NCBI GenBank assembly: GCA_000687975.1
Contig: JIAB01000001.1
Coordinates: 186,001 to 250,000, forward strand
Direction: 5' to 3'
From: Lachnospiraceae bacterium AC2031
GTDB taxonomy: Bacteria; Bacillota; Clostridia; Lachnospirales; Lachnospiraceae
Length of the DNA stretch: 64,000 nucleotides
Shown: piece after piece, positions 9,417 to 43,341 of the stretch
Numbering within the stretch: position 1 is the first letter of the stretch
Layout of the letters: every line of letters starts with the position of its first letter
The notes under the pieces: model-generated
Told to the model about the DNA's origin: nothing
Database searches by the model: none
What the model saw: the letters and a program-made list of their open reading frames with translations, nothing else
Program-made: the position numbers and the translations under genes

Positions 9417-10649
9417 TTATTCAAGTGTGATTTTTATCTGAACTGGATTGTGATCACTTGGAGCAAACATAGTATCCTGAGTAAGTAATTCATCAACTTT
9501 TATATTTTTTGATACAATAAAACCATCAAGCATGTAATACTGGAAGTTATTCTTATCTTCAGCTTTACTATAAGCTTTATCAAGAGATCTACAGGTTGGA
9601 GTGCTTGAATCCATAAGACACTGAAAATCATTTCCAAAGTCATTTACATCAATCTGACCAGGCTTCCAAACATTTTGAATCTCATCATGTACAGGATAAG
9701 CTGATGTATCAACATTAGAAAATGTCTGATTAAAGTCACCACCAGCAATTACATAATTGCCTTTGTTATACTCTTCCTGAAGAAACTCACAAAGCTGCTT
9801 AGTCTGAGCAATCTTTCCTTCACCATTATCATAAGCTTCCAGATGAAGATTCACGCAAACAAGCTCCTTACCTGTATCATTACCATCAGCATCATATACA
9901 GGTGTTCTATTAACAAGAAGACATCTCTTCAGATTACAAGTCTTTACAGGCCATGAATATGGACAAGGAAGACTGATTCTCTCAGAATCTTCAACCTCAT
10001 ATTTAGAAAAGATAGCAACACCACTTTGCACTTTACCTATTGGATCACTAACTGGATAAGGAACAAATGGCGCCTTAAAGTTATAAGCAAATGTCATCAC
10101 ATAGCCATTGTAATCAGGATCCTGTTCATTCACTTCCTTTGCAAGTAAAGGTATATCACCCTGAATCTTAGTTGCTTCATCTTGATAATAAGATCTCTTA
10201 GAATTTCTATCTATTTCCTGGATAAATGCAATATCAGGATTCATTCCTACATAAAAACCATTTACACCAGCAAGATTTACATCAACTCTCTCTGGGACAG
10301 CAGTCATTACATTAGTACCACCATCCATAAAGAAATCAGCATTATCTCCCAGAGCTCCATAACCAATATTCCAGGTAACAATATTTAAACTATCACCAAC
10401 CTTAAGTTTCTTACCAGTGCCCTCTGTTGTATCAATCTCAACTTTTTCAACATCAGCTGGTCTATATTCATTAATTGTGAGCCATCCAAAGAATCCTAGA
10501 ACTATAACAACTGGAATTGCCAAGATACAGAGTATAACTCTAAGTATCTTACCCTTAAGAGTGAGAGGCTTTTTCTCTTTAACACTCTTCTCCCCCTTCT
10601 TCTTGGTATCCTTCTGGTTCTCAACCTTCTTGCTGTTCCTATTAGCCAT
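9417..10649 (-). CDS. Membrane-tethered endonuclease/exonuclease/phosphatase family protein
   Basis: A 410-residue protein. The first 35 residues are Lys/Arg-rich and cytoplasmic; a transmembrane helix follows at about 36-57, so the catalytic part is outside the cell. The EEP (DNase I-like) core shows the expected blocks in order: NIVTWNIGYG (about 88), FIQEIDRNS (about 139), VCVNLHLEA (about 270), VIAGGDFNQTF (about 300) and the C-terminal PSDHNPV. These supply the catalytic Asn, Glu, Asp/Asn and His. The family hydrolyses phosphodiesters in nucleic acids, inositol phosphates or sphingomyelin. The substrate here is unknown; an extracellular nuclease or phospholipase role is plausible. A monocistronic unit, separated from the hydrogenase operon by a terminator and a structured element. 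Confidence 0.8.
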   Translation of the reverse strand: MANRNSKKVENQKDTKKKGEKSVKEKKPLTLKGKILRVILCILAIPVVIVLGFFGWLTINEYRPADVEKVEIDTTEGTGKKLKVGDSLNIVTWNIGYGALGDNADFFMDGGTNVMTAVPERVDVNLAGVNGFYVGMNPDIAFIQEIDRNSKRSYYQDEATKIQGDIPLLAKEVNEQDPDYNGYVMTFAYNFKAPFVPYPVSDPIGKVQSGVAIFSKYEVEDSERISLPCPYSWPVKTCNLKRCLLVNRTPVYDADGNDTGKELVCVNLHLEAYDNGEGKIAQTKQLCEFLQEEYNKGNYVIAGGDFNQTFSNVDTSAYPVHDEIQNVWKPGQIDVNDFGNDFQCLMDSSTPTCRSLDKAYSKAEDKNNFQYYMLDGFIVSKNIKVDELLTQDTMFAPSDHNPVQIKITLE

Positions 10650-10770
10650 TTTTTCATAACCTTCCTTACAGATTCATCACCGAAAATCCGATGATTTCCA
10701 ACTACCATATTATATAACAATTAACTACTTATTGCATTAATTATTCATTAATCATTGTCTTAAAAATACG

Positions 10771-10861
10771 AACTAAGTTGTGACCATATACTCATTCAAC
10801 ATCGCTTTCGCTAAGCGCCGAGGCCCGCAATGGTCTCATGAGTATATGTCACCCCTTAGTT
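10771..10861. repeat. 91-nt inverted-repeat element folding as a three-way junction
   Basis: The two ends pair over 22 bp in three blocks: AACTAAG (10771-10777) with CTTAGTT (10855-10861); GTGAC with GTCAC; and, after a one-base bulge, ATATACTCAT (10786 onward) with ATGAGTATAT (10838-10847). Inside, two further hairpins form: CGCTT-TCGCT-AAGCG (10803-10817) and GAGGCC-CGCAAT-GGTCTC (10820-10837, one G-U pair on the plus strand). It is far more GC-rich in its core than the flanks and lies in a gap of 286 nt, between the hydrogenase terminator and the EEP gene. It could be a REP/MITE-like palindromic repeat or a small structured RNA. No coding potential was seen. Confidence 0.7.
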
Positions 10862-10879
10862 CTTCCACTTCCAAATAAC

Positions 10880-10916
10880 AAAAAAAGATGGCAAGTAGTA
10901 AAAACCACTTGCCATC
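10880..10916 (-). terminator. Terminator of the hydCBA operon
   Basis: On the minus strand a 10-bp perfect stem GATGGCAAGT/ACTTGCCATC with additional pairing near the loop (hairpin 10887-10916) is followed by seven T residues. It lies 20 nt after the hydA stop. Confidence 0.92.
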
Positions 10917-10935
10917 AATATGCTCAATTTAGTGA

Positions 10936-12711
10936 TTATTTAACTTCATTGAAGCCTTCACGAGCAGCATATGTTGTATGCAGAAGCTCATGTGCCTTGT
11001 GGCTGTTAGGCTCACCAAGGAACTTCTCATAAAGTTCAATAATCTGAGGATTCTTATGTGACTGACGAAGTGTCTGTCTCTCATCCTCTGAGTAAAGAGC
11101 CTGAGCTCTCTTCTCTTTGTATGTATCCATGATGTCATCATCTTCGTTAGGAAGGAAGCACTCACGAACGTAAGGCTGACCACCACCGTTGATACATCCA
11201 CCTGGACATCCCATGATCTCGATGAAGTGATACTTTGACTTTCCTTCTCTAATCTCATCAAGAAGTACTTTAGCTGACTTCATACCAGAAGCAAGAGCTA
11301 CATTTACTGTAGTGCCGTTGATATCAAGTGAAGCCTCTCTGATACCTGCGTCATGACCACGAACAGCCTTGAACTCGATAGGATCAGATTCCTTACCTGT
11401 AAGCTTGAAGTATACTGTACGAAGAGCAGCTTCCATAACACCACCAGTAACTCCGAAGATAACTCCGGCACCTGTATAGTCGCCCATGATATCCTGATCC
11501 CAATCTTCGTCTGGAAGTCTGTCAAAGAGGATACCAGATCTCTTGATCATACGAGCAAGCTCTCTTGTTGTGATTACTGCATCTACATCATTAAGACCAT
11601 TAACCTTAAGCTGATCACGATCCTTCTCAAACTTCTTAGCTGTACAAGGCATAACTGATACTACGAAGATATCTTCTGGCTTAACACCATTCTGCTCAGC
11701 CCAGTATGACTTGATGATAGCACCCTGCATCTGATGAGGTGACTTACATGATGAAAGGTGTGGAAGAAGATCTCCATAGTTGTACTCAGCATAGTTGATC
11801 CATCCTGGTGAACATGATGTGATCATTGGAAGTGTTCCACCATTTGTGAGACGTCCAAGAAGCTCTGTACCTTCCTCCATGATTGTAAGGTCAGCACCAA
11901 AGTTTACATCATAAACTCTATCGAAACCAAGTCTTCTCATAGCTGCAACCATCTTACCTGTTACAGGTGTTCCGATCTTATAACCGAACTCTTCACCAAG
12001 TGCAGCTCTAACTGCAGGAGCAGCCTGAGCGATAACTGTCTTACCAGCTGCAAATGCTGCATCAATCTTATCGATTTCTGAATGCTCCATAAGAGCTCCT
12101 GTAGGACATACATTTACGCACTGTCCACACTGGATACATGGAGAATCAGCAAATGATCTATTCTCAGCAGGTGCTACGAAAGTTGAGAAACCTCTGTTCT
12201 CGAAACCAAGGATTCCAAGACCATGAGCGTTCTTACATCTCTCGATACATCTACCACAAAGGATACACTTTGAAGTATCTCTTACAAGACCTGGAGCAAC
12301 CTCATCAAAATGTGTCTCTGAGTGAACGCCTTCATAAGCACCCTCTCTAGCACCTGTAAGATAAGCTACATTAAGAAGCTCACACTTACCATTCTTATCG
12401 CACTGCTGGCAGTTCTTGTTATGATTTGAAAGAAGCAGTTCAACGCTGTTACGTCTAGCTGCAGTAGCCTTAGGTGAAGATATTGTAATCTCCATTCCCT
12501 CTGCTACAGGATAAACACATGATGCTACAAGGCCTCTAGCGCCTGTTGCCTCAACGAGACAAACACGGCATGAACCCTGATTGCACTCACCGTGATTGAA
12601 TGCACAAAGTGAAGGAATCTCGTAACCGCACTTCTTAGCAGCCTCAAGGATAGTTAAACCTTCCTCTACCTGATAGGAGATGCCTTCTATTTTAATATTA
12701 ATCATCGCCAT
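10936..12711 (-). CDS. hydA: [FeFe] hydrogenase catalytic subunit HydA of a trimeric NAD-linked enzyme
   Basis: A 591-residue enzyme that reduces protons or oxidises hydrogen in the cytoplasm. Residues 1-80 are a plant-type [2Fe-2S] domain (C36, C48, C51, C65). H97, C101, C104 and C110 form the His-ligated [4Fe-4S] site. Two ferredoxin clusters use C149/152/155/159 and C192/195/198/202. The H-cluster motifs are L1 TSCSPGW (298-304), L2 MPCTAKK (C356) and L3 GCPGGCINGGGQP (C502, C506). L1 reads Cys-Ser where the canonical motif has Cys-Cys, so the proton-relay cysteine is a serine; the two glutamates of the relay (EEGTELL near 280) remain. Third gene of hydC-hydB-hydA, so an NADH-dependent or electron-bifurcating complex is expected. 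Confidence 0.92.
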   Translation of the reverse strand: MAMINIKIEGISYQVEEGLTILEAAKKCGYEIPSLCAFNHGECNQGSCRVCLVEATGARGLVASCVYPVAEGMEITISSPKATAARRNSVELLLSNHNKNCQQCDKNGKCELLNVAYLTGAREGAYEGVHSETHFDEVAPGLVRDTSKCILCGRCIERCKNAHGLGILGFENRGFSTFVAPAENRSFADSPCIQCGQCVNVCPTGALMEHSEIDKIDAAFAAGKTVIAQAAPAVRAALGEEFGYKIGTPVTGKMVAAMRRLGFDRVYDVNFGADLTIMEEGTELLGRLTNGGTLPMITSCSPGWINYAEYNYGDLLPHLSSCKSPHQMQGAIIKSYWAEQNGVKPEDIFVVSVMPCTAKKFEKDRDQLKVNGLNDVDAVITTRELARMIKRSGILFDRLPDEDWDQDIMGDYTGAGVIFGVTGGVMEAALRTVYFKLTGKESDPIEFKAVRGHDAGIREASLDINGTTVNVALASGMKSAKVLLDEIREGKSKYHFIEIMGCPGGCINGGGQPYVRECFLPNEDDDIMDTYKEKRAQALYSEDERQTLRQSHKNPQIIELYEKFLGEPNSHKAHELLHTTYAAREGFNEVK

Positions 12712-43257: not shown

Positions 43258-43341
43258 GCCGGCGTGTTGGAATTGGCAGACAAGGCAGACTCAAAATCTG
43301 TTGGTGGCAACACCGTGCGGGTTCGACCCCCGCCGCCGGCA
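43258..43341 (+). tRNA. tRNA-Leu (anticodon CAA)
   Basis: An 84-nt class II tRNA. The acceptor GCCGGCG pairs with CGCCGGC over 7 bp with discriminator A. The T arm is GCGGG-TTCGACC-CCCGC. The anticodon loop CTCAAAA gives CAA, reading UUG. A long variable arm with a GGTG/CACC stem is typical of tRNA-Leu. CCA is not encoded. It has its own promoter and no obvious strong terminator; a T-rich stretch (ATTTTTTATTTT) follows at about 43354-43365. Confidence 0.95.

Follow-up and report, generated by a model that had tools for sequence, protein, structure and literature searches.

The gap between the hydrogenase gene hydA and its downstream neighbour in Lachnospiraceae bacterium AC2031 holds a short, strongly folding, GC-rich stretch, and the question raised by this locus is what kind of element has left such a fold there. 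The initial annotation described a 22-bp outer stem with an internal loop and a single bulge, enclosing two inner hairpins and lying after a complete terminator, and suggested that the element might belong to an uncharacterised palindromic repeat family, “REP or MITE-like”, or else be a small RNA with a transcript of its own. The question is addressed here for the window, which is the whole stretch of DNA that was analysed (64,000 nucleotides, C1:186001-250000 of a one-contig genome of 3,191,482 bases), and for the related copies found in other genomes.

The element beside hydA

RNA folding of 10771-10861 gives -35.9 kcal/mol against a mean of -15.7 for shuffled sequences (z -6.8; 0 of 200 shuffles as good), so the pairing lies beyond chance, as had been claimed, and the predicted fold has the two inner hairpins together with an outer stem of 22 base pairs (7+5+10) that is interrupted by a 2x2 internal loop and one bulge. 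One further pair, between 10770 and 10862, extends this stem. The minus strand of the same stretch folds equally strongly (-39.4, z -6.7, with none of 200 shuffles as stable), and alignment to full copies of the repeat identifies minus as the sense strand of the element in the window. The whole element, delimited by folding and by this alignment as an internally deleted copy of a repeat family, occupies 10770..10862 (-). On its sense strand it consists of the 5' arm of the outer stem, P1, at 10838..10862, which pairs with 10770-10795; the 3' arm at 10770..10795, located by folding; and, between the arms, a 42-nt remnant of the conserved core at 10796..10837. The remnant, which retains a 5' segment from GAGACC to TTAGCG and a 3' segment AAAGCGATGTTGA, is matched by the first of two covariance models described below, R1 (E 0.005), and weakly, over the arms too, by the second, R2 (E 2.2).

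The surroundings of the element are simple. Upstream of it, and outside it, the terminator scan places a terminator-like hairpin of the hydrogenase operon at 10887..10916 (-), which is accompanied by a T tract and lies 3' of hydA, so the terminator reported ahead of the element is indeed there. The upstream neighbour hydA, the [FeFe]-hydrogenase catalytic subunit gene (10936..12711, -), was named by inspection of its translation, and the downstream neighbour (9417..10649, -), likewise named by inspection, encodes a 410-aa endonuclease/exonuclease/phosphatase family-like protein. Within 10550-11000 the terminator scan detects nothing besides the hairpin at 10887-10916, and a simple scan for sigma-70-type promoters detects none. 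A single tRNA gene was detected in the window, tRNA-Leu (caa) at 43258-43341 (+).

A dispersed repeat and its shared fold

The core of the element recurs elsewhere in its own genome. The three best places in a DNA search are 86-94% identical to it over 30-49 bases, and the complete copies at these loci have cores of 114-156 nt, each flanked by long inverted arms of its own. R1, a covariance model of seven full cores from this genome (core 114-156 nt), returns 13 rows there, representing 12 copies and one opposite-strand row of a known copy (E 4). R2, a model trained on 12 copies from the window's genus and given a specified nested structure, returns 12 matches, that to the window copy being weak. 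The genome therefore holds 11 copies besides that of the window, and both models place only 10770-10862 within C1:186001-250000, in keeping with the earlier remark that no second copy could be seen in the window.

The figures for copy number and taxonomic reach derive from R1 and R2 and should be read as lower bounds, in the large R2 searches (order, family and phylum) because only 7 to 10 candidates were scored per genome, 7 in the family search. R1 matches 16 of 41 genomes, comprising 16 of the 25 from the window's genus and none of the 16 from other genera. R2 matches at least 79 of 396 genomes and 71 of 317 sampled genera in the host's family, at least 14 of 295 genomes and 9 of 128 genera in the host's order, and at least 5 of 398 genomes in the phylum. 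The last five are three members of the host's family, one genome of another family (G699), which has four matches with the same architecture in the two that were folded, and G543, whose match is a plain palindrome and probably false. With 126 candidates scored, R2 matches appear in 15 of 25 chosen genomes, the largest counts being 28, 23, 21, 17 and 13; in G041, a DNA query gives 11 matches and R2 one. An exact pattern of the repeat occurs in 86 stretches of a public genome collection, and the 80 that were listed all bear Lachnospiraceae or Eubacterium sp. titles, several of them naming rumen or gut samples. Neither a search of viral contigs with one exact pattern nor a search of plasmid and phage collections with one full copy gave a match, and carriage by phage or plasmid is therefore unsupported by these searches.

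In Rfam 15 no family matches the window element at the gathering score, and none matches the element up to E 1 in six loci of the window's own genome and 20 loci of other genera; a further comparison gave only weak matches at the level of chance. Two known RNAs were encountered in the loci examined: a ZMP/ZTP riboswitch at L003 2365-2476 (-), with 44.1 bits against a gathering score of 39, and a TwoAYGGAY RNA at L214 1236-1402 (-), with 109.1 bits, about 100 nt from a repeat copy.

Read by inspection on the sense strand, full copies share an anatomy that runs from P1 through a GAC/GUC extension, an inner stem, a conserved hairpin (P3) and a GNRA-capped hairpin to the return arm. P1 varies from 18 to about 47 pairs and is followed in many copies by a GA/GA step, after which comes the short GAC/GUC extension. 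The inner stem has about six pairs and occurs in variants such as UUGCGGG:CCCGCAA, UUUUGGG:CCCAAA and CACGGG:CCCGUG. P3 contains a U.U mismatch and a GA/A internal loop, and a segment such as GCUAGGGGU separates it from the short GNRA-capped hairpin. An earlier model, in which a downstream strand formed a pseudoknot with the loop of a GAGACC/GGUCUC hairpin, gave way to this fully nested one. The GAGACC/GGUCUC hairpin itself, one of the two originally described, can form with at least 5 of its 6 pairs in 74 of the 84 copies from the genus (24% in the control) and in 15 of 60 copies elsewhere (16% in the control); it is therefore at most a genus-level alternative.

The shared fold is supported by covariation in three alignments, which like the R2 counts are fitted to the model and to that extent favour it. 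A5 consists of 85 copies from the window's genus, including 12 from which R2 was built; in it 90.9% of cells are paired, both sides change in 43 of 47 pairs, and the covariation measure is 0.614 against at most 0.093 for slid partners. A6 contains 60 matches (55 distinct) from other genera, none of which was used to build R2 though they were aligned to it, and the corresponding values are 91.9%, 43 of 47 pairs, and 0.815 against at most 0.129; the observed value is reached by 0 of 500 shuffles on four measures and by 1 of 500 on a fifth. A mixed set, A7, gives 92.2%, 45 of 47 pairs and 0.786. The size of the excess, together with single-sequence folds that recover the same architecture, means that the result does not depend on the model-fitted alignment alone. 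In the arms it is the pairing that is conserved and not the sequence: all four Watson-Crick pair types are represented at 17 of the 18 arm pairs of A5 and at 18 of 18 in A6. Covarying helices in independent sequences, by which a structured RNA family is recognised, are thus found in A6 (aligned to R2), and the proposal of an uncharacterised palindromic repeat family is borne out by the 12 copies in the window's own genome, the many other genera, the strong covariation and the lack of an Rfam match. Covariation alone is nevertheless no proof of a host RNA function, because mobile foldback repeats can show it as well.

Three features point to a single folded strand. Among short hairpins that show a G-N-N-A loop, a purine occupies the third position in 75 of 75 copies from the genus and in 49 of 51 from elsewhere (85 and 55 were examined, 10 and 4 of which lack such a loop at the motif's place). 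In the arms, G.T outnumbers A.C on the sense strand by 61 to 28 in A5 and by 43 to 27 in A6, and P3 retains a U-G wobble in 66 of 81 A5 cells and 13 of 23 A6 cells. The purine rule leans towards RNA as the folded strand, but the cells behind these counts come from related copies and the model tolerates wobble.

Deletion, sites and neighbouring pairs

The hydA site of G336, a close relative whose hydA is 95% identical, contains a full copy in the same orientation (L295:627-773), with a core of 106 nt as compared to 42 nt in the window. The approximately 64 nt that are missing from the window copy (counted by eye) extend in the alignment from right after TTAGCG to right before AAGCGATG, and inspection of this comparison places the approximate deletion junction, TTAGCG/AAAGCG, at 10806..10812 (-). 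In the G336 copy, again by inspection, AGCG is present at both edges of the lost part, which fits the expectation for a deletion between short repeats. Most of P3 falls in the lost part, together with the inner stem's 3' strand and the 5' side of the GNRA hairpin, and the remnant is unable to form any of these three structures. The two inner hairpins originally described are real features of the window copy, but they are the fold of a deletion derivative and differ from the conserved inner fold of the family because these core nucleotides are missing. A deletion probably took out the greater part of the window copy's core, and this copy has probably ceased to be active. Its arms still pair, but their sequence is not that of the arms in the G336 copy or in L002.

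At about 560-640 of L295 there is also an apparent remnant of a second, inverted copy beside the full one, from which it follows that a divergent-pair layout existed at this site too. The hydA gaps of G323, G345 and G015 contain no copy (R2 up to E 1, and reading of the gaps), and the longer gaps of G344 and G327 give no R2 match up to E 1, although a decayed copy scoring as low as that of the window could in principle escape this search.

Copies are scattered between unrelated genes in either orientation, and several comparisons bear on how they came to their sites. In the genus g18, a block of about 160 nt that includes the arms precedes a gene in G041 and G086 and is missing in G229, G107 and G172, in a comparison whose flanks align poorly; R2 finds nothing at this site in G229, G107, G172 or G158. 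The absence of the repeat from a site could instead reflect loss. Two G015 copies at unrelated sites, L089 and L096, share arms and core, and their similarity ends where the arms end, while L035 and L089 align for about 30 nt past the arms on the left side only. By eye, neither a target-site duplication nor a near-identical empty site is seen around L035, L089 and L096; no insertion between near-identical strains was caught, and no mobilising enzyme for the repeat was found. The sharing of arms among related copies (L035/L089/L096, the “CTGACAAATACTTTTC” group, and the window copy with L002) implies that the arms travel with the element, and it rules out insertion into a pre-existing hairpin or an inverted duplication of the target.

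Neighbouring copies were tallied by hand from the match listings, the family-wide R2 search having scored few candidates per genome. All 18 opposite-strand neighbours within 500 bp among the matches listed are of the (-,+) type, with their 5' ends facing, and none is (+,-). Three more (-,+) neighbours among these matches lie 501-1000 bp apart, and an extra (-,+) pair in L244 stands outside the tally of 18. Eight same-strand neighbours within 500 bp occur among the matches listed; some have equal scores, and these are probably local duplications. The same-strand neighbours of G318 (C55 6398-6752, equal scores and identical sequence), of G776 (C72 and C163) and of G1035 (C9) appear to have arisen by local tandem duplication and not by separate insertions. 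In L253 and L254, as judged by eye, the divergent pairs are bordered by further inverted repeats of about 20 nt, so that the whole layout forms a longer palindrome.

Readings of the repeat

The reading preferred here, with a probability of about 0.55, is that the window holds, in decayed form, a copy of a non-autonomous mobile repeat which acts as a folded single strand. Against this reading count the searches that gave no mobilising enzyme and no target-site duplication, the alignment of L035 and L089 past the arms, and the sites, described below, at which copies have kept their place. The folded strand, either as RNA or as DNA during replication, would be recognised and copied or moved by a putative trans-acting enzyme, and the complementarity of the arms would be kept by selection for the fold, by copying of arm from arm during propagation, or by both.

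A more tentative proposal is that the repeat is a structure-defined hairpin element of an undescribed kind, in which one arm would be made from the other in each round of copying and only the folded core would be recognised. Self-templated foldback of RNA or of single-stranded DNA would then yield arms without a fixed sequence, and the divergent pairs may be the products of such copying.

The main rival, which is possible rather than probable, is that the repeat is a multicopy structured RNA with a function for the host, such as a leader, a processing or stability element, or a small RNA. The GNRA loops, the kept wobble in P3 and the wobble bias of the sense strand all speak for it, and of the 12 copies in the window's own genome 8 lie in the sense orientation to both called neighbours, with two antisense and two mixed or with one neighbour called. 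Across the 75 of 85 copies that have two neighbours called by an ORF heuristic, however, orientation is free: 31 are sense to both (++), 23 antisense to both (--), 16 lie between convergent genes (+-) and 5 between divergent genes (-+), and antisense copies prevail in G015. One site, flanked by the same two genes in three genomes, has a sense copy in G000 and G007 and an antisense copy in G015 (L025 and L048 against L089). A cis-regulatory leader requires a fixed orientation to the gene that it serves, and it is set aside on the basis of the 75 copies and of this gene pair. The unrelated neighbours and the variable presence between species also count against a host function. Some sites are old and have been kept: a copy lies upstream of rfbB (named by inspection) at four loci in two genera, two species each, and L021/L029 and L220/L239 each represent one site in two species. 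Such conservation would also be expected from a host function. At another locus the copy is antisense in L044 and sense in L100, and L049 carries a divergent pair, as though one or the other member of an ancestral pair had disappeared.

It is improbable that the repeat simply derives from a known transposon as a MITE, a REP or some other non-autonomous form mobilised through its terminal inverted repeats. This explanation draws on the size of the repeat, its intergenic spread, its terminal inverted arms and its carriage by an insertion sequence in G002. In this genome, the one that was screened for ISLre2 ends, 10 of 12 fetched copies lie inside a repeat of roughly 1.7 kb, which is represented by six identical or nearly identical versions and by one and three of related versions that are 84-88% alike. 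The version that was measured has 1765 bases, its transposase scores as ISLre2 (NF033529; Pfam UPF0236), and the present repeat follows the stop codon of the transposase and precedes the right end. The remaining two G002 copies are outside the insertion sequence and have only the repeat in common with it. The occurrence of all four Watson-Crick types at nearly all arm pairs stands against the explanation, since it leaves no fixed terminal sequence for a transposase.

Comparison with known small mobile sequences leads to the same point. MITEs and the bacterial RUP, BOX, Correia and ERIC sequences resemble the repeat in being non-coding and intergenic, with terminal inverted arms and a presence that varies between species. 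The terminal repeats of MITEs are conserved in sequence, whereas in the present repeat only the pairing is conserved, and the types of arm pairs provide no sign of conserved terminal inverted repeats shared with a transposon. The REP/BIME sequences of enterobacteria are short palindromic intergenic repeats in many copies that are associated with Y1 (RAYT) transposases (in part after PMC2817692). The present repeat resembles them in these dispersed intergenic palindromes of high copy number and in its pairs of opposite orientation, but it is larger, has a junction-bearing fold and has free arm sequence. A Y1 transposase (PF01797) is present in 14 of 22 genomes searched, including the repeat holders G000, G002 and G298, yet at the sensitivity used none is detected in G015, G052, G065, G165 or G318, which hold 13 to 28 matches (by R2, except for the 20 of G015, by R1). 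A Y1 mobiliser is set aside for this reason. Of the original label “REP or MITE-like”, the likeness stands, but the repeat is classed as neither, because one defining feature of each was tested and is lacking.

It is quite unlikely that the palindrome has been kept perfect purely by mutational copying between the arms (quasi-palindrome correction) and is itself neither functional nor mobile. In arms that are at least 60% alike, double changes that keep Watson-Crick pairing do exceed single-sided changes, by 283 to 164 in A5 and by 158 to 52 in A6, with 74 and 25 double changes that do not keep it; the comparisons share copies and so lack independence. Among the three pairs of closest similarity (0.91-0.94), six changes are single-sided, one is a double change that breaks pairing and none keeps the pair, which counts against arm copying and also against the preferred reading, and the next-closest pair, two copies in L254, has two pair-keeping double changes and no single change. 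Correction would also leave unexplained the core, GNRA loop and junction conserved across genera, as well as the spread to many sites, and the A5 and A6 results already indicate that selection acts on the core independently of the arms. Finally, a chance fold or a second transcription terminator, which might be suspected of a GC-rich stretch directly after a terminator-like hairpin, is very improbable given the z of -6.8, the homologous full copies, the covariation and a terminator scan that finds only the hairpin at 10887-10916; chance is already refuted.

The repeat resembles the structured bacterial RNAs of Rfam 15 in its covarying multi-helix fold, GNRA loop and internal loops, and differs from them in that no family matches it. 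Literature searches, at the level of titles and the beginnings of abstracts, returned nothing that describes it. Among 3161 candidate structured RNAs of the human microbiome, 250 are given as palindromic in the main text of the source (PMC8040213), which contains no occurrence of Lachnospir- or Eubacterium; some of these candidates might overlap the present repeat and would then be a nameless earlier sighting of it.

The repeat has a strongly covarying fold that recurs across dozens of genera or more in a bacterial family prominent in gut and rumen, without a match in Rfam 15, and it provides RNA annotators with a family to add. It also offers a clean case in which to study how repeats spread without a fixed terminal-repeat sequence, and in which to ask if compensatory change in a long stem stems from selection or from copying between the arms.
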